39,338 bases of DNA from a virus (IMGVR_UViG_3300010157_000009:1-39338); one strand, 5' to 3'; numbered from the stretch's first letter, positions 13,850-22,557 are shown. The notes: generated by a model from the sequence alone, not told the origin. Numbers and translations: made by a program.

Positions 13850-15043
13850 ATGAACACATTCACTTACAACGAAACATCATACAGCCGATTCGAGCTACTC
13901 AAAGGCTTGGAAGCACGCAAAGCGGGACGTGCTTGGGCGAAGCATGTGGGAGCAGCCAGCACAACGGTAGACGCTCTGACGATGGACGACCTTAACGCTA
14001 TCTGGCTCGATACCACAAACGCTCTGATTGCTGACCTAGTGGTAGGCAAACTGCCTGCCCTACAGGCTCAGGCTGATAAGCCAGCCAAGCCAGTTAAGGT
14101 GCAGGACGATGGCCTGAACGTAGACGATGCCATGACGATTCTGAGCATCCTTAACAAGGCCAAGGGGGGAAAGGCTGAATTGGACGAAGCCCGCGTACTT
14201 GAACTTATCGCAGAACATGCGCCCAAGGCAGAGCCTTACGTCAAAGGCTACGAATTCAAGACAGAGGCTACAACCTACCTTACAGAAGGCAGGCAGCATG
14301 CATACTTCCCGCTCGTTGTCGCTGCTCTGGCTGCACGTCAGCATGTATGGCTTGTGGGGCCAGCGGGAGGCGGTAAGACAACGCTTGTTTCCAAGGCAGC
14401 CGAGACGCTTGGGCTTCAGCACCGAGCCATCTCTGTCTGTGGTCAGACAACCAAGACAGACTTGCTAGGCTTCATCGACGCTCACGGTGTGTATCGTGGC
14501 ACTGCCTTTCGCGAAGCCTTTGAACACGGCTTCGTGTTCCTCCTTGATGAGGCGGACAACGGCAACGCCAACGTCCTTGCTGTGCTCAACGCTGCTCTTG
14601 CCAATGGGGAAATGACTTTCCCCGACAAGACAGTGAAGCGTCATCCTGACTTCGTCACAGTGGCATGCGCCAATACCTACGGCGGAGGCGCTACAAGCCA
14701 GTATGTGGGGCGTAATCCAATAGATGCTGCCACATTGGACAGGTTCTTTTTCATTCAGCTTCCCTACGACGAAGGTCTTGAGGCTTCCTTCGTTGGACTG
14801 AATGTGCCTTCGCCAGACTTTAACCTGTCTGACGGTGGGTTCATGGACGCTGGAGCTTGGTTCTCGCTTGTCACAACAGTGAGAGAGAACGCTGATAAAA
14901 ATGCCATCAAGGCTGTTATCTCTCCGCGTGCTACAATCGCAGGTGCAAAGCTTGCTGCTTTGGGAGTTGGCAAGGCTTGGCTGGTTAAAGGCTTGGTCGT
15001 TAAGTCTCTAGACTCCGTTTCGGCTGGCAAGCTTGGCATCTAA
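13850..15043 (+). CDS. MoxR/CobS-like AAA+ ATPase, 397 aa
   Basis: The N-terminal 140 residues are a helical, phage-specific region. The AAA+ core follows: Walker A GPAGGGKTTL around residues 170-179, Walker B FVFLLDEADN around 228-237, sensor 1 in VACANTYGGG near 271, LDRFFFIQL near 302 and a sensor-2-like SPRATIAG near 364. This fits the MoxR/CobS branch, which usually works with a VWA-domain partner to remodel or load client proteins; the next gene is such a partner candidate. The start is preceded by an A/C-rich leader (AACACAAACTAGAAAGACAA) without SD. The client is unknown. Class is secure; role is inferred. Confidence 0.88.
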   Translation: MNTFTYNETSYSRFELLKGLEARKAGRAWAKHVGAASTTVDALTMDDLNAIWLDTTNALIADLVVGKLPALQAQADKPAKPVKVQDDGLNVDDAMTILSILNKAKGGKAELDEARVLELIAEHAPKAEPYVKGYEFKTEATTYLTEGRQHAYFPLVVAALAARQHVWLVGPAGGGKTTLVSKAAETLGLQHRAISVCGQTTKTDLLGFIDAHGVYRGTAFREAFEHGFVFLLDEADNGNANVLAVLNAALANGEMTFPDKTVKRHPDFVTVACANTYGGGATSQYVGRNPIDAATLDRFFFIQLPYDEGLEASFVGLNVPSPDFNLSDGGFMDAGAWFSLVTTVRENADKNAIKAVISPRATIAGAKLAALGVGKAWLVKGLVVKSLDSVSAGKLGI

Positions 15044-15062
15044 CAATCAGACAATCAGACAT

Positions 15063-15869
15063 ATGAGGACGTACAATTCAAAGTTCGATTCGGTGGGCGA
15101 TTTTCTCGCTTATCTACATGGCTGCAAGATGACGTTCAGCGCATCAGCCCAGCGCAAGAATTCTGACGGCTTCCACGAGTTTCAAGGCTGGCAAGAATGC
15201 CAGACTGCTCTACGCACTGGCTGGCAAGATGGAGTTGACGCCGTAAACGCTAAATCTGCAAGGCTAGAGGCTATCCTAGGTTCCAGCGTCATGCGCGAAT
15301 CCTACTCACCTGCAACCACAGGCCAGTTTTTCGACGTTGGCCTAGTCATGAGCGGTGAGCCAGAATGCTGGCTAGAGACAACACAAGAAGAGACAGGCTC
15401 CAAGGTTGTCACGATTGGCATTAACGCTTGCATCTCTGGCGCAGTAAACAAGCGGACAATCATAGAGCGGGGCGCTGCAACATGCGCCTTAGTTAAGCTA
15501 CTAGAGACTCAAGGCAAGAGCGTCCGCGTTGTCTATGGTGTGGGACTTAACGTCAAATCAGACATGTCAGGTGACAAGTTGCAGTTAGAGATTGTTTTGA
15601 AGCGTGAAGGTGATCCCCTTGACCTTGACACGTTAGCCTTCTGGCTTGTCTGTCCTGACGCCTTTCGCAGGCTTTGCTTTCGCTTCATTGAATCGCAGGG
15701 GCCGATTTGGTCACAGGTAGGGAGCAGCTACGGCTTTCCTGATAAAGCTTGGAACCCAGAGGCTGACGTTAAGATCCCAGCCATCTACTCTTCCTCTGAC
15801 TGGACAGAGGAGAGAACACAAGGATGGATCAAGAGCATCCTGAAGGCTCAAGGTATCGCACTAGACTAG
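15063..15869 (+). CDS. VWA-like partner of the AAA ATPase (DUF7192-like), 268 aa
   Basis: The frame opens at 15033, inside the ATPase gene, but the ATG at 15063 follows an A/C-rich leader and gives MRTYNSKFDSVGDFLAYLHG, so it is preferred. The segment GQFFDVGLVMSGEPECWLE, followed by a VxIGINACISGAVN strand and later VRVVYGVGLNVK, matches proteins that accompany MoxR-like ATPases in phages and plasmids (DUF7192 type, related to VWA folds). The canonical DxSxS metal site is not obvious. Stop and start spacing from the ATPase (19 nt) indicates one operon. It probably delivers or recognises the ATPase client. Confidence 0.65.
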   Translation: MRTYNSKFDSVGDFLAYLHGCKMTFSASAQRKNSDGFHEFQGWQECQTALRTGWQDGVDAVNAKSARLEAILGSSVMRESYSPATTGQFFDVGLVMSGEPECWLETTQEETGSKVVTIGINACISGAVNKRTIIERGAATCALVKLLETQGKSVRVVYGVGLNVKSDMSGDKLQLEIVLKREGDPLDLDTLAFWLVCPDAFRRLCFRFIESQGPIWSQVGSSYGFPDKAWNPEADVKIPAIYSSSDWTEERTQGWIKSILKAQGIALD

Positions 15870-17960: not shown

Positions 17961-18527
17961 TTAAATGTCTATAACTTTTTGCTGTTCTTCTGTTTCACCC
18001 ATGGCTTCCAAAAACTGTCTTTGAATGTCTGACGGATGAAAGTGGAAACTGTTTACTTGAATGTCTGGCATCTTAACGGCCTCCATTTGTCCCAAGGCTT
18101 CGATGCTTTTTGCAAGAGCAAGCGTTGCATCTCTGGCGTTCATCTCTGGAATCAACTCGGCTACTTTATCGGCGGACAATTCAGCTACGTTCTGAAGCTT
18201 CTTTCGGATGTTCACTTTGAACATAGCGTTGGCAAACTGCGTATCCGTGTCCAACGCCCGTAACTTTACGTCACCCACTACTGTCTTGCTGATGTTCAGT
18301 TTTTCCGCAATTGCGGTGATAGTGTTGCCCGCACAGTAAAGATCTAGGATTTGTTTGCGTTGTTCTTCCGAAACAGACGCCCAATCTCCCCTTCCATTAA
18401 TCTTTTCAATGTGCCCACAACCTTCAACATGATCCTCAATCCTGACTCCAGACAAGCCAGCAAGTTGTCTGGCTCGCGTTTCAGCAGATTTATACTTCTT
18501 TGGTTTTGGTTGTTTTTTGTCACTCAT
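17961..18527 (-). CDS. HTH protein, possible small terminase or regulator, 188 aa
   Basis: The ATG at 18527 is 2 nt after the DnaB C-half stop; a TTG two codons earlier would overlap that stop. Residues about 50-90 (SEEQRKQILDLYCAGNTITA, then IAEKLNISKTVVGDVKLRAL) form a clear helix-turn-helix. The N-terminus is basic (KKQPKPKKYKSAETRARQLA). The rest is helical (VAELSADKVAELIPEMNARD). Small terminase subunits often have an N-terminal HTH followed by an oligomerisation helix, and no other candidate lies near the large subunit. A transcription regulator is the alternative. Confidence 0.55.
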   Translation of the reverse strand: MSDKKQPKPKKYKSAETRARQLAGLSGVRIEDHVEGCGHIEKINGRGDWASVSEEQRKQILDLYCAGNTITAIAEKLNISKTVVGDVKLRALDTDTQFANAMFKVNIRKKLQNVAELSADKVAELIPEMNARDATLALAKSIEALGQMEAVKMPDIQVNSFHFHPSDIQRQFLEAMGETEEQQKVIDI

Positions 18528-18529
18528 AA

Positions 18530-19120
18530 TCAATTTAAAAACGACGCGGTTCTTCCGTTAAATCGTAGCGAAGTCTGTACGCCACAAGGGCCGTTGCGCT
18601 GATAGGGTATCACGATTGTCCTGTTCTCGGAATTCTCTTTTCCTTCTTCCATTTTGATTGCGACAATCGCAGTTGCATCCTGTTGGATTGCTCGACTCTC
18701 ACGCGCCTTTCCCTGCTCATTAAGCTGGGTAATGCTGATGACTAGACAGTTCAACTCAAGCCCCAGCAAACGAAGGGAGCGGCTCACCTCGGCCACCTCG
18801 CGTTCCCGTGTACCTTCGCGTCCAAGATCGCAGCGAACTAGCTGTAGATAGTCTACAAACAAAAGGGAAAGCCCCGTCTGACTCTTTGCCATGGCTCTGG
18901 CAGTGGCGCAGATACTTGCAATGTCGTACAGGTCGTCCCTTACTACGAGTTTACTCTGGCTCAACTTGGTCAACGCCTTCTGCACTCCCCGCATCTCCGA
19001 TTCCGTCTTTACCCCTTCGCTTAGGCTTCTTAACGAGACGCTTCCGATCTTTGCTACCAGCCTGTCTATGATCTGACTTGCTGGCATCTCTAGCGACACT
19101 ATCAATATTCCTTTTTCCAT
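18530..19120 (-). CDS. DnaB-like replicative helicase, C-terminal half, 196 aa
   Basis: Starting at ATG 19120 the protein reads MEKGILIVSLEMPASQIIDR, aligning with the strand after the Walker A helix of DnaB (xxVxIFSLEMPxEQIxxR). Walker B is LLFVDYLQL (residues 86-94), followed by EVSRSLRLLGLELN, ITQLNEQG, ESRAIQQDA (141-149) and the Arg-finger region YQRNGPCG (173-180). It ends normally for DnaB. It has no Walker A. The missing part, including the N-terminal domain and Walker A, is encoded at 21323-21973. The two would together make about 412 residues, near normal DnaB size. A longer frame reaches 19234, but its extra residues do not resemble DnaB. Confidence 0.88.
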   Translation of the reverse strand: MEKGILIVSLEMPASQIIDRLVAKIGSVSLRSLSEGVKTESEMRGVQKALTKLSQSKLVVRDDLYDIASICATARAMAKSQTGLSLLFVDYLQLVRCDLGREGTREREVAEVSRSLRLLGLELNCLVISITQLNEQGKARESRAIQQDATAIVAIKMEEGKENSENRTIVIPYQRNGPCGVQTSLRFNGRTASFLN

Positions 19121-19352
19121 TGTTTTTTGTAAATGTCTGACTGTTATGTGTTTTCTGTCCCTGCCACTTGGTAATGTACAGGGTAACCTCAATTTGATCC
19201 GAACTCTGGTTCTCGGGAAGCAGGGCCATATCATCTAGTATAGCCCTGCACCCTGCTTCACTCCCATAAACTATTACCTCTTGAGTAATCTTAGGACGGG
19301 GCAATCGAAGAGAATCATCAATGACCTCCGTCCTTCTTAGCAAAACCTTCAT
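18951..19352 (-). CDS. Possible protein overlapping the DnaB C-half start, 133 aa or shorter
   Basis: The ATG at 19352 overlaps the exonuclease stop by 4 bases, like every other junction in this operon, which supports it. The first 75 residues (MKVLLRRTEVIDDSLRLPRP, then EVIVYGSEAGCRAILDDMAL) look like a small alpha/beta fold. The remainder lies in another frame over DnaB C-half for 170 bp and is low-complexity and basic. Just before the DnaB start the frame contains A-AAA-AAC, a canonical -1 slippery heptamer; a -1 shift ends it at a TGA about six codons later. The real product may be about 85 aa. Not recognised. Confidence 0.45.
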   Translation of the reverse strand: MKVLLRRTEVIDDSLRLPRPKITQEVIVYGSEAGCRAILDDMALLPENQSSDQIEVTLYITKWQGQKTHNSQTFTKNNGKRNIDSVARDASKSDHRQAGSKDRKRLVKKPKRRGKDGIGDAGSAEGVDQVEPE

Positions 19353-20113
19353 GCGAATCTACTCATCAATACTCGCGTCAACGGAGGCTCGGGCCAATGG
19401 TTCTGCTCAACACAATCAAGGTACTGCTCAAGACCTTCGTCAATTCTGGCGTTCGCCTTCTCGATTGCTTCTCCAGACAGCAGCACCCATTGGGCAAAGT
19501 GTGGCTCCTCGGTATCTACAACCAAGAACCAGAAGTCGCATTGCGTACCAATAATTTCCATCAACCCACGTTGATACCATGCGGCTTGCATGTCGTAGTT
19601 GAATGACCAAAACTTTTGGTCAAACTTGTTGAAGTCAGATGTTGTCTTAAGATCTACAATACACGGCTTCCCGTTGAACTCTCCAATAATGTCTGGTCTG
19701 CCCTTGCAGAGAACTCCTGACCTGCTCCAATACATCGAGCTTTCAACGTGTTGAATCTTGCAGGAAGCCAGTAAGTTTCTGGACTTGGAAACAGCACCGT
19801 TGATCCTGCGCTCCTCATCAACTGTGATGATCTCTTTGCCCACATTTTCTTCACAGAAAATCTGCCACTCTTCCTTGCCCGCCTTAGTTCGTTTGTCAAC
19901 CTCTGGCCCAATGGCATAGTCAACGCGCCCTTCGATGGCAGCACTATGGATCAGCGTGCCAAGGATCATTTCACGGGACGGCTTCCACTCTTTGGTTTTC
20001 TTGAACTTGTAGTAAGCGGGAGCGACAAGGAAGTTGTCAAACTCATGCTTGCTAAGTCCTTCTGCTGCTCGATAAACGTGCATGGGCACATCTTGAATCA
20101 TGTATGGTTTCAT
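19349..20113 (-). CDS. PD-(D/E)XK exonuclease, RecE/RecB-like, 254 aa
   Basis: The nuclease motifs appear in order: GTLIHSAAIEG (52-62), KGRPDIIG with Asp at 141, IVDLKTT with Asp154 and Lys156, and the QAAWYQRG motif (176-183) typical of the RecB/RecE family. The length fits phage-type exonuclease VIII-like proteins that resect double-stranded ends for recombination-dependent replication. No partner annealase (RecT or Erf type) is recognised; the OB-fold protein at 23363 may provide the ssDNA partner. It overlaps both neighbours by 4 bases and lies between the DnaB halves. Confidence 0.85.
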   Translation of the reverse strand: MKPYMIQDVPMHVYRAAEGLSKHEFDNFLVAPAYYKFKKTKEWKPSREMILGTLIHSAAIEGRVDYAIGPEVDKRTKAGKEEWQIFCEENVGKEIITVDEERRINGAVSKSRNLLASCKIQHVESSMYWSRSGVLCKGRPDIIGEFNGKPCIVDLKTTSDFNKFDQKFWSFNYDMQAAWYQRGLMEIIGTQCDFWFLVVDTEEPHFAQWVLLSGEAIEKANARIDEGLEQYLDCVEQNHWPEPPLTRVLMSRFA

Positions 20114-20454
20114 ATTTTTGCTTCTGTTATTTTTGTTTCCAATTTTTTGGCGACACTAAGTACACCTCTTCTAAAATCCTCGTCAATAAAACAAGCTGCT
20201 TTTTCCAAATAATACGCAAGCTCCTCAAACGCAGATTTGTACATTGCTCTTTCAAGCTTTGCCTTGTCTAGTTGACGTTCAGTTTCAGCAAGCAAAATCT
20301 CGATGGCAGCAAATGCTGCTGCTTCAGGCATACTGTCGTTTAGTCGCTGCAACTCCTCCAACCTGTCAGCGGCGGCTCGCATCTCCCTTACGGGCGCGTA
20401 ATCTGGCATCGCGGCTAGCTCGCGCAGTGATTCGATTATCTGTTGTGTAGTCAT
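20110..20454 (-). CDS. Helical protein of unknown function, 114 aa
   Basis: The ATG at 20454 overlaps the upstream stop in an ATGA junction, so it is preferred over the ATG at 20469. The protein is almost entirely helical and coiled-coil-like: MTTQQIIESLRELAAMPDYA, then VREMRAAADRLEELQRLNDS and AIEILLAETERQLDKAKLER. Such short coiled coils are common accessory proteins in phage replication operons. The family is not recognised. The 3' end overlaps the exonuclease start by 4 bases. Confidence 0.65.
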   Translation of the reverse strand: MTTQQIIESLRELAAMPDYAPVREMRAAADRLEELQRLNDSMPEAAAFAAIEILLAETERQLDKAKLERAMYKSAFEELAYYLEKAACFIDEDFRRGVLSVAKKLETKITEAKI

Positions 20455-20816
20455 TTTGCCTCCTCCCATTTGTCCAACGTCCGCAGAAACGCCTCTGCGC
20501 GTTGGCGCGCTGTGGCATCTAGTAAATCGACGGCTTCCGCCCTGTAACCAATAGTTGGCAACAAGATTTTGCCCAATTCATGCACAAAATCATACCTAGC
20601 ACCGTAACTCTTGGCCCATAACTGTGTCTCCGCCTCATGCATGGAGTTGAGGTCGTTGCAGTAGTCTGGTATTGGCGTATGCACGTCAAAGGTAACTTTC
20701 ATCCCTTTGTGTGTGCCCACCAATTTTTTGTGCAACCAACCGTTTGATGCAATCCGCGTAATGTCTGCCCACCCGCACGCCTCCGCTATCGCTACGTTAA
20801 TTTGTTCGTTGGTCAT
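20451..20816 (-). CDS. Phage ABA-sandwich domain protein, 121 aa
   Basis: The sequence IPDYCNDLNSMHEAETQLWA followed later by LDATARQRAEAFLRTLDKWE matches the conserved core of the small ABA-sandwich proteins (Phage_ABA_S, PF18066) widespread in phages and prophages. The N-terminus (MTNEQINVAIAEACGW) is also family-like. Its molecular role is unknown, though members often sit in early or replication regions. It overlaps the previous and next genes by 4 bases each. Length is normal. Confidence 0.8.
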   Translation of the reverse strand: MTNEQINVAIAEACGWADITRIASNGWLHKKLVGTHKGMKVTFDVHTPIPDYCNDLNSMHEAETQLWAKSYGARYDFVHELGKILLPTIGYRAEAVDLLDATARQRAEAFLRTLDKWEEAK

Positions 20817-21010
20817 TCTCGCTCCTCCTGCACATCAATGGTGACTCCGAAATGTTCTTCCATTGATCCACGAACACTTTCAAGAATTCGTTCGATTTCT
20901 CGCAATCTGGCATGGGCGCGGTCTGCACTGAGAGCCAACTTAGCATTAAGAACGTCAAGACGTTCAATTTGCACCATCAAAGCGCGTTCGTTAGCAGTTA
21001 ATGTTTCCAT
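20813..21010 (-). CDS. Small coiled-coil protein, 65 aa
   Basis: From the ATG at 21010 the protein reads METLTANERALMVQIERLDV and then LNAKLALSADRAHARLREIE, a single long coiled coil with heptad leucines, ending in HFGVTIDVQEERE. An upstream ATG at 21043 would add 11 residues inside the preceding gene; either start is possible. The stop overlaps the next start by 4 bases. It may oligomerise with the helical protein at 20110. No family is recognised. Confidence 0.6.
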   Translation of the reverse strand: METLTANERALMVQIERLDVLNAKLALSADRAHARLREIERILESVRGSMEEHFGVTIDVQEERE

Positions 21011-21326
21011 GTTCAGGATTGATTTCAAAGCCAACGCATCCAACCACTACTCCAATGTTGTTTCGAAGAAGTTTTGCGGGTGAAACTAAGTCCCTGCGAG
21101 ATGGAAAATATTGTCTTACCATCGAAGGGACAACATACACCGTATTTTTAGTCTTTGGAGGGAGTCCGCTAATCCCGTGGGCAATGGTTTCCATGACGGG
21201 AATTCCGTTGATTTCTCCAGACTGGATGATCTGGAAGTTGACTCTGGCAATTTCGCCAGACGGCATGATTGGGGCATGACCCGCAATGTTTATGGTATGT
21301 GGAGTTAGGTTTACGATTTTTGTCAT
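20991..21326 (-). CDS. NLTPH-family conserved phage protein, 111 aa
   Basis: The protein begins MTKIVNLTPHTINIAGHAPI, then PSGEIARVNFQ, then GISGLPPKTKNTVYVVPSMV and RRDLVSPA. This is the pattern of a conserved phage and mobile-element family with an N-terminal NLTPHxI motif and a later YVVSxxV and RxDxxxP. No function is established. Its ATG overlaps the DnaB N-half stop by 4 bases, so the broken end of dnaB is tightly joined to this gene. Confidence 0.75.
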   Translation of the reverse strand: MTKIVNLTPHTINIAGHAPIMPSGEIARVNFQIIQSGEINGIPVMETIAHGISGLPPKTKNTVYVVPSMVRQYFPSRRDLVSPAKLLRNNIGVVVGCVGFEINPEHGNINC

Positions 21327-21973
21327 AATAGGTGTGCTATAATGTTTAGTGCTAGCATTGTCTTACCGCTTTTTGTTTCGCCACCAATAACTAAGAAGTC
21401 ACCGAGGCGAATGGGTGTAAGGTTATCAAGCTTGTCAAAGCCTGTCTTAATTACTTGAGACTGATCTCCTCCAGTTTCATAAACTTGAAGCCGTTCCATG
21501 ATGATGGACTTGGTATCCATGATGGCAGGAGGATTTAACTCGTTCTGAATCGCATCCACTTGCATCTGGACTTGATTCACCAAGTCATGCGTCTTGGTAT
21601 CAAGTGCATCTATCTTGGACAAGCCTTCCTGCATGACCATCATCAAGGCTCTGCGCTTGGCAGTAGCCTTCACGACATCAAGCAATTGTGGCAACGCGCC
21701 TTCAATCGGCATAAGCGTATAAAGCACGCTCAAGTCCGCAAACTGAGTGGTGGAAATTCGCTCACGAAGGTTCTCAAAAACTATGCGAATATCACAAGGT
21801 ACTGACCTGGACGTTAAGTCTAAGACAACTTCAACCACAGCCTTGCTAAGTGGATCGAATATGTCCGCGACATTGAACCGTTTCTCATCAAGTCGATTCA
21901 AGAACGTGGTTGGGTTGTTGAGCGCAACACTGGCAATGCCACGCTCGGCTTCTGTAGCCGTTGGAACCTGCAT
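21323..21973 (-). CDS. DnaB-like replicative helicase, N-terminal half, 216 aa
   Basis: Residues 1-100 match the DnaB N-terminal domain (TEAERGIASVALNNPTTF, then DIFDPLSKAVVEVVLDL). A linker helix follows, then KTGFDKLDNLTPIRLGDFLV and Walker A GETKSGKT at 198-205. The protein then stops after MLALNIIAHLL, exactly where the next DnaB segment should begin. That missing segment, starting at the SLEM strand, is encoded at 18530-19120. No degraded DnaB sequence follows the stop; instead the stop overlaps the next gene's ATG by 4 bases. The half carries ATP-binding residues but lacks Walker B and the Arg finger, so it should need its partner. Confidence 0.88.
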   Translation of the reverse strand: MQVPTATEAERGIASVALNNPTTFLNRLDEKRFNVADIFDPLSKAVVEVVLDLTSRSVPCDIRIVFENLRERISTTQFADLSVLYTLMPIEGALPQLLDVVKATAKRRALMMVMQEGLSKIDALDTKTHDLVNQVQMQVDAIQNELNPPAIMDTKSIIMERLQVYETGGDQSQVIKTGFDKLDNLTPIRLGDFLVIGGETKSGKTMLALNIIAHLL

Positions 21974-22557
21974 TACCAGCCCTCCTGACTGTCAGTTGAA
22001 GCTGAAAGCAAACTGCCTGTAGTCACAGCCTCCTTCACCTTGTTAAAGTGTGCGTTGCTCTGTGCCCTGCTTAACCAAGCGTTCAAGAACCTACCAGTGC
22101 CTTGGTGCGTCTTGCGCTTCTTTGGGTTCGTAGCAAGCCAAGCCTTGGCAATCGGAAACTCATGCTTGATAAGCTCGATGCCATAAGCGGAGATGAAGTC
22201 CTTGAGGGTCTTGATGGGGACATAATAACAAGTCGTCTGGGTTTCAAACGGCACTTGGCACAAGTCAGCTTCTTGGTCGGGTTTTTCCTCCTCCACTCCC
22301 CTCTCCTTCCTTTCCCCCATACCCCCTATCCTACCTTTCCCCTCTACCTCCTCCTTTTCCCTAGTAGCTTCGACCATATCCATTTTGACATATCGAGCGT
22401 ACTCGGCATCTAGCTCGTCCTGCGTCTTGGAGGGGGTTTCTTGGCACTTGTCATCCTCTCCTTGATAGGAGACAGCAGTCAGTGTCTTTTCTTCCAAAGG
22501 AATCAAGATTTCAGTAACCGTGCCAGAAGCATATGTGACCTTAATCTGGATATTCAT
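21973..22557 (-). CDS. Replication-organiser-like protein, 194 aa
   Basis: The N-terminal half is charged and probably disordered (EATREKEEVEGKGRIGGM to about residue 100). The C-terminal half has LKDFISAYGIELIKHEFPIA and then KAWLATNPKKRKTHQGTGRF, followed by LNAWLSRAQ. The xxWLxxNPxxRKTxxGxxRFLNxWLSRAQ pattern recurs in phage replication-initiation and DnaD-like proteins encoded next to DnaB helicases. It is therefore a likely helicase loader or origin-binding partner. The stop overlaps the start of the DnaB N-half by one base (TAATG). Function is inferred. Confidence 0.6.
   Translation of the reverse strand: MNIQIKVTYASGTVTEILIPLEEKTLTAVSYQGEDDKCQETPSKTQDELDAEYARYVKMDMVEATREKEEVEGKGRIGGMGERKERGVEEEKPDQEADLCQVPFETQTTCYYVPIKTLKDFISAYGIELIKHEFPIAKAWLATNPKKRKTHQGTGRFLNAWLSRAQSNAHFNKVKEAVTTGSLLSASTDSQEGW

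Follow-up and report, generated by a model that had tools for sequence, protein, structure and literature searches.

The window analysed here, a virus genome of 39,338 bases, carries a 113-base direct repeat at its ends and is therefore a closed, complete phage genome. A cluster of replication and recombination genes lies on its minus strand, in the transcription order 194-aa gene, dnaB-N, NLTPH gene, three small genes, exonuclease VIII-like nuclease, a further small gene, dnaB-C, and HTH gene (Table 1). The initial annotation had described dnaB-N and dnaB-C as one replicative helicase gene split in two inside its RecA fold, with about 2.2 kb between the halves, genes joined mainly by 4-base overlaps, and a combined product of about 412 aa, near the size of an intact DnaB. 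This description holds in coordinates, sizes, and content: a PF03796 search finds exactly the two pieces, the spacer measures 2,202 bp, and the summed length of 412 aa compares with 431–471 aa in intact phage DnaBs. The exception to the short overlaps is the 133-aa ORF, which shares 170 bases with dnaB-C in another frame. Directly upstream of dnaB-N, the 194-aa gene has no family match, its homologues are present in 161 fetched loci (repeat fetches counted), and from its position it is a putative replication initiator or loader. No polymerase or primase was recognised among the phage genes scanned.

Table 1. Genes of the replication/recombination cluster around the two dnaB pieces, in order of transcription
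Feature	Position	Strand	Remarks
194-aa gene directly upstream of dnaB-N	21973..22557	-	stop/ATG overlap TAATG with dnaB-N
dnaB-N	21323..21973	-	216 aa; stop TGA overlaps the ATG of the next gene
NLTPH gene, first in spacer	20991..21326	-	111 aa; 4-base ATGA overlap with the dnaB-N stop; matches phrog_30542/21731, function unknown
Small coiled-coil ORF	20813..21043	-	76 aa with a TTG start, or 65 aa if begun at an internal ATG near 21010
121-aa spacer gene	20451..20816	-	also in some relatives
119-aa spacer gene	20110..20469	-	window-specific
Exonuclease VIII-like PD-(D/E)XK nuclease (DUF3799)	19349..20113	-	present in 77/77 spacers
133-aa ORF adjoining dnaB-C upstream	18951..19352	-	first ~80 aa conserved; relatives in 34/77 spacers
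dnaB-C	18530..19120	-	196 aa; own ATG conserved in relatives
190-aa HTH protein gene directly downstream of dnaB-C	17961..18533	-	4-base overlap

The N piece consists of a DnaB N-terminal domain (residues 1–95), a linker (96–172), and the start of the RecA core (173–216), the last of these comprising strand 1, the P-loop GETKSGKT, and the Walker A helix; its C-terminus, SGKTMLALNIIAHLL followed by the stop, lies just past that helix. The C piece opens with MEKGILIVSLEM, at the strand 2 that carries the catalytic Glu (SLEM), and contains the rest of the RecA core: Walker B (FVDYLQL), ITQLN, the RES..QQDA loop, and the arginine finger (QRNGP). PF03796 matches the C piece with 117 bits over profile positions 42–254 and covers positions 2–48 on the N piece. 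The match of the N piece to PF00772 (DnaB N-terminal domain) is weak (E 5.6e-4, under the curated cut-off); phrog_19 matches its residues 1–215 (E 1.6e-19), and hhalign aligns residues 1–216 with intact DnaB (prob 98.4), such that both the collar domain and the linker helix of DnaB can be recognised in it. The single chain of DnaB is replaced by two separate ORFs in every member. A structure model of the C piece (pLDDT 67, good for residues 1–90) matches DnaB structures (Foldseek E about 1e-9, TM ~0.6); the model of the N piece is of low confidence (pLDDT 52), and its weak DnaB matches (E 0.035) are given no weight.

When aligned by hhalign to the columns of intact DnaB, the N piece occupies 6–223 and the C piece 227–433, which places the break in one surface loop, where helix 1 leads into strand 2, with almost nothing lost. 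The distance from the Walker A Lys to the catalytic Glu is 24 residues in 14 of 21 intact proteins, and 24 is the commonest value when the two members of a split pair are summed (most others falling at 22–27, with three pairs that total 48 residues, in which the N frame runs on into the next gene). PDB sequence matches agree with this placement, the one for the N piece running up to residue 225 of 2vye and the one for the C piece starting at residue 234 of both 2vye and 2r6a.

The initial annotation had proposed looking for the same split in related phages, and had named a contiguous dnaB or a second intact helicase as findings that would tell against its reading. Viral contigs scanned with each piece yielded the same break in 77 distinct N–C pairs from many metagenomes, a recurrence that rules out chance. 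Order and strand are identical in all fetched loci holding both pieces (158, with repeat fetches of the same contigs counted), none of which has a contiguous copy, and spacer length ranges from 1.3 to 3.8 kb; loci with a single piece are each ended by a contig edge within one spacer's length. Nor does the PF03796 search find any other DnaB_C in the window's genome. A DnaB-independent test, in which relatives were chosen by terminase and then searched with PF03796, gave two separate pieces in 21 of 31 records, the C piece alone near a contig end in 2, and an intact gene in none (the remaining 8, without a DnaB_C match, are probably fragments, being 16–35 kb long).

The split proteins group together as a single clade (support 100/100) when the joined sequences are placed on a tree, and the stem leading to them is very long, at about 3 changes per column. 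The other side of the terminase family is represented by C75C1 (OQ984151; terminase about 33–35% identical) and nine contigs, with a single intact DnaB of 431–454 aa. Nearest intact relatives were sought via the C profile, the terminase profile, and tblastn with the joined pieces, and these routes returned no intermediates between split and intact C pieces; the split ones lie at 68% identity or above and the intact ones at or below about 36%, with nothing in between to date the split.

Both pieces are under strong purifying selection, with a median dN/dS of 0.049 for the N piece and 0.041 for the C piece. Within the N piece, the ratio falls to 0.025 in the RecA fragment (residues 173–213), whereas the N-terminal domain and linker are at about 0.054. 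Given that this P-loop fragment is unable to form an ATP site alone and has no obvious use without the C piece, its low dN/dS is the strongest sequence argument for the N piece working together with the C piece. The residues invariant in the clade are divided between the two pieces: Walker A in the N piece; catalytic Glu, Walker B, Q motif, and arginine finger in the C piece. ITQLN, RES..QDA, and the QRNGP arginine are conserved throughout the split clade. The earlier claim that all key residues are kept is not fully right, the exception being the lysine of the trans-acting K-x-R motif (Lys sensor and Arg finger, K418/R420 in Geobacillus DnaB numbering). This lysine is present in all intact DnaBs aligned and is replaced by Tyr, Phe, Ile, or Trp in all split sequences aligned (as in IPYQRNGP), the arginine being kept, such that split DnaB lacks a complete K-x-R motif. 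The lost lysine and the long stem together indicate that the enzyme has changed in more than being cut. Profile and fold evidence place it within the DnaB family by descent, as a K-x-R variant and not as a canonical DnaB.

The locus very probably encodes a conserved two-chain DnaB that functions by non-covalent assembly in trans. The initial annotation had put forward this reading, with the chain broken at the loop that follows the Walker A helix. It is favoured because the split is fixed in the lineage, purifying selection on both pieces is strong, the genome has no intact or second DnaB, and neither intein nor intron is apparent. From conservation and selection, we infer reassembly into an active enzyme, that is, physical assembly of the pieces, ring formation, and helicase activity.

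What speaks against the two-chain reading, besides the changes to the enzyme noted above, is that such a phage might in principle rely on the DnaB of its host. It is unlikely, by comparison, that the pieces have ceased to be a helicase and taken on another role, such as modulating or loading host DnaB. As no polymerase or primase was recognised in the genes scanned, host machinery is probably used anyway; a change of role would also suit the long divergent stem of the split clade and the loss of the K-x-R lysine. It would leave unexplained, however, why Walker A, catalytic Glu, Walker B, Q, and arginine finger stay invariant though neither piece alone makes an ATP site, why constraint on the P-loop fragment so far exceeds that on the remainder of the N piece, and why the pieces are found apart only at contig ends.

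Covalent rejoining, which would restore an ordinary single-chain DnaB through a split intein, a (split) intron, or trans-splicing, is very improbable. Fractured genes that carry split inteins do occur in phages, the T4-type gp41 helicase among them, but here the N piece stops a few residues past the Walker A helix without an intein-length tail and the C piece starts at strand 2 without an intein head; there is no extra coding sequence at either edge, in agreement with what had first been read from the sequence. Moreover, the NLTPH protein is coded after the N piece, and the genes before the C piece differ between groups. Across positions 18300–22300, no Rfam intron match was obtained up to E=5, and an intron-interrupted gene is further discounted by a spacer that is protein-coding and variable in content. 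Frameshifting or readthrough into dnaB-C was also considered and rejected, since many loci have a stop directly before its ATG or overlapping it; at the A AAA AAC preceding dnaB-C in the window, a shift would enter the wrong frame.

Recent gene breakage or metagenome misassembly, an explanation that a view of a single genome would permit, is refuted by the 77 distinct pairs from many metagenomes, the circular closure of the window through its end repeat, a dN/dS of about 0.04–0.05, and the restriction of the split to one old clade, and the age and conservation of the split likewise dispose of the earlier suggestion of a helicase broken by insertion and tolerated.

In the loci read, the NLTPH gene follows dnaB-N (concealed by the ORF caller in one group), and a small gene precedes dnaB-C in 34 of the 77 spacers. 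The remaining content varies; among these genes, named by eye, are a Dcm-type methyltransferase in 26 spacers and a dNMP-kinase-like gene in 20. A homing endonuclease is rejected as the present cause of the split, an HNH endonuclease gene occurring in one of the 77 spacers (L039); no endonuclease gene was recognised between the halves in the window. A homing endonuclease since lost may nonetheless have been the cause. C75C1 has an exonuclease and an initiator gene in its replication cluster, yet its dnaB is uninterrupted; the split may have originated by movement of the cluster into dnaB, or by movement of half of dnaB.

Expression of the second piece appears tied to its neighbour. The dnaB-C start reads ATGA in 45 of 60 distinct loci, and in many of them an ORF lying upstream terminates at that point (stop end at +4), an arrangement that is the usual sign of translational coupling and is suggestive of it here. 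Relatives of the 133-aa ORF often end in ATGA at the dnaB-C start; in other loci, the stop falls directly before the dnaB-C ATG or further inside. In the window itself, dnaB-C lacks a clear Shine-Dalgarno site.

For a two-chain DnaB, we propose the following arrangement. The helicase would be made as two polypeptides, never covalently joined, from genes in one replication/recombination operon, each translated from its own start, with translation of dnaB-C mostly coupled to that of the preceding gene. The N piece would supply the collar domain, linker helix, strand 1, P-loop, and Walker A helix; from the C piece would come strand 2, bearing the catalytic Glu, together with Walker B, the DNA loops, and the arginine finger. 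The contact between the two would run through the middle of the RecA sheet, at the surface loop that links helix 1 to strand 2, such that each ATP site would be built from two chains and the neighbour's finger, and six N–C pairs would form a ring of 12 chains. It is doubtful that the split is an adaptation as opposed to a tolerated scar, whereby the ring would be assembled around ssDNA (N collar first, C pieces then added) without a ring-opening loader and the altered K-x-R would reflect changed subunit coordination.

Replicative ring helicases are textbook single-chain motors. If the two-chain reading is true, a lineage that has long kept one cut would show that two chains can permanently make up a RecA core; the break would be a naturally occurring division point for the design of controllable helicases, and ring loading by assembling chains on DNA would become directly testable. 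Among open-access papers, a search for split DnaB returned no publication on one that is free of inteins; the papers that came up dealt with inteins or with unrelated subjects.

Comparison with intact phage DnaBs (C75C1 OQ984151, phi297, Lbo-JY16, and P1 Ban) shows that they share the domains and motifs of the split form and align collinearly with the two pieces; these proteins differ in being one chain, in keeping the K-x-R lysine (in those aligned), and in sequence, with 23–29% identity to the joined pieces. The heads of SMC/Rad50 proteins provide an analogy for the divided active site, in that one ATPase is formed from Walker A and Walker B lobes that are far apart in sequence. Fractured genes with split inteins resemble the present case where, as for gp41, a phage replicative helicase gene lies in two distant parts; there the intein rejoins the protein, whereas split DnaB has no intein sequence.

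Intein-free split replication enzymes that work in trans are already known, from NrdA, gp43, and gp39/60 of T4-type phages and from Pol III and RNAP of jumbo phages. T4-type genes in pieces include split nrdA (Aeh1), the 43A/43B DNA polymerase (Aeromonas phages 25/44RR), and the gp39/gp60 topoisomerase; full activity has been shown for the Aeh1 NrdA, and 43A and 43B have been shown to purify together and to polymerise (PMC2988022). In jumbo phages, the minimal Pol III alpha is divided, as are RNAP beta/beta', and the parts are thought to reassemble (PMC7824862); these systems share with split DnaB the lineage-wide division of a core enzyme into separately encoded proteins, although those are polymerases of large-genome phages and the enzyme here is a ring helicase. 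Like the T4-type examples, split DnaB is a replication or nucleotide enzyme encoded as two genes without inteins. In the T4-type cases, the split goes with a homing endonuclease or with an insert that is not translated, whereas the spacer of split DnaB is an operon segment with exonuclease VIII and no general endonuclease; its split, moreover, is fixed in a whole lineage and cuts a hexameric RecA-fold motor inside the ATPase core. On balance, the two-chain DnaB is best read as the hexameric-helicase counterpart of the T4-type "genes in pieces".

The C piece of the split helicase gene departs from intact DnaB at the K-x-R motif (IPYQRNGP in the window), in which the lysine is replaced by Tyr, Phe, Ile or Trp in all aligned sequences of the split clade, the related viral contigs that carry dnaB as two separate genes, whereas it is present in all of the intact DnaBs aligned. 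The arginine of the motif is retained in the aligned split-clade sequences.

Coordinates of features in the window
Feature	Position	Strand	Remark
MoxR/AAA_5 ATPase, then DUF7192 protein	13850-15869	+	CoxD/CobS-like pair
dnaB C piece	18530-19120	-	K-x-R motif
133-aa ORF	18951-19352	-	overlaps dnaB C piece start in another frame
A AAA AAC run	19122-19128	-	

Just before the C piece, and in frame of the 133-aa ORF, lies an A AAA AAC run; a -1 shift at this site would end the ORF early without entering the dnaB-C frame, and the run is probably a chance occurrence.

The 3' end of dnaB-N varies in one subgroup (loci L030, L032 and L034): the stop that usually closes the N piece is missing there, and its reading frame continues for ~24 more residues into the NLTPH gene, the first gene of the spacer between the two pieces, which it overlaps in a different frame. 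By eye, we spotted an HNH endonuclease-like gene (IHHINGDKTDNRIENLELL) in the spacer of locus L039, the only spacer to hold one.

A split pair is also present on a contig of a bacterial Pedosphaera MAG (L167, JAFMIZ010000069.1), probably a phage contig whose host is a Verrucomicrobiota bacterium or which was binned together with one. Among PHROG families, the profile of phrog_23150 (217 positions) resembles the N-terminal part of DnaB, cut off beyond the Walker A helix, and that of phrog_11530 (184 positions) a C-terminal DnaB fragment; judged from these profiles, the two may represent truncated or split DnaB genes of other known phages.
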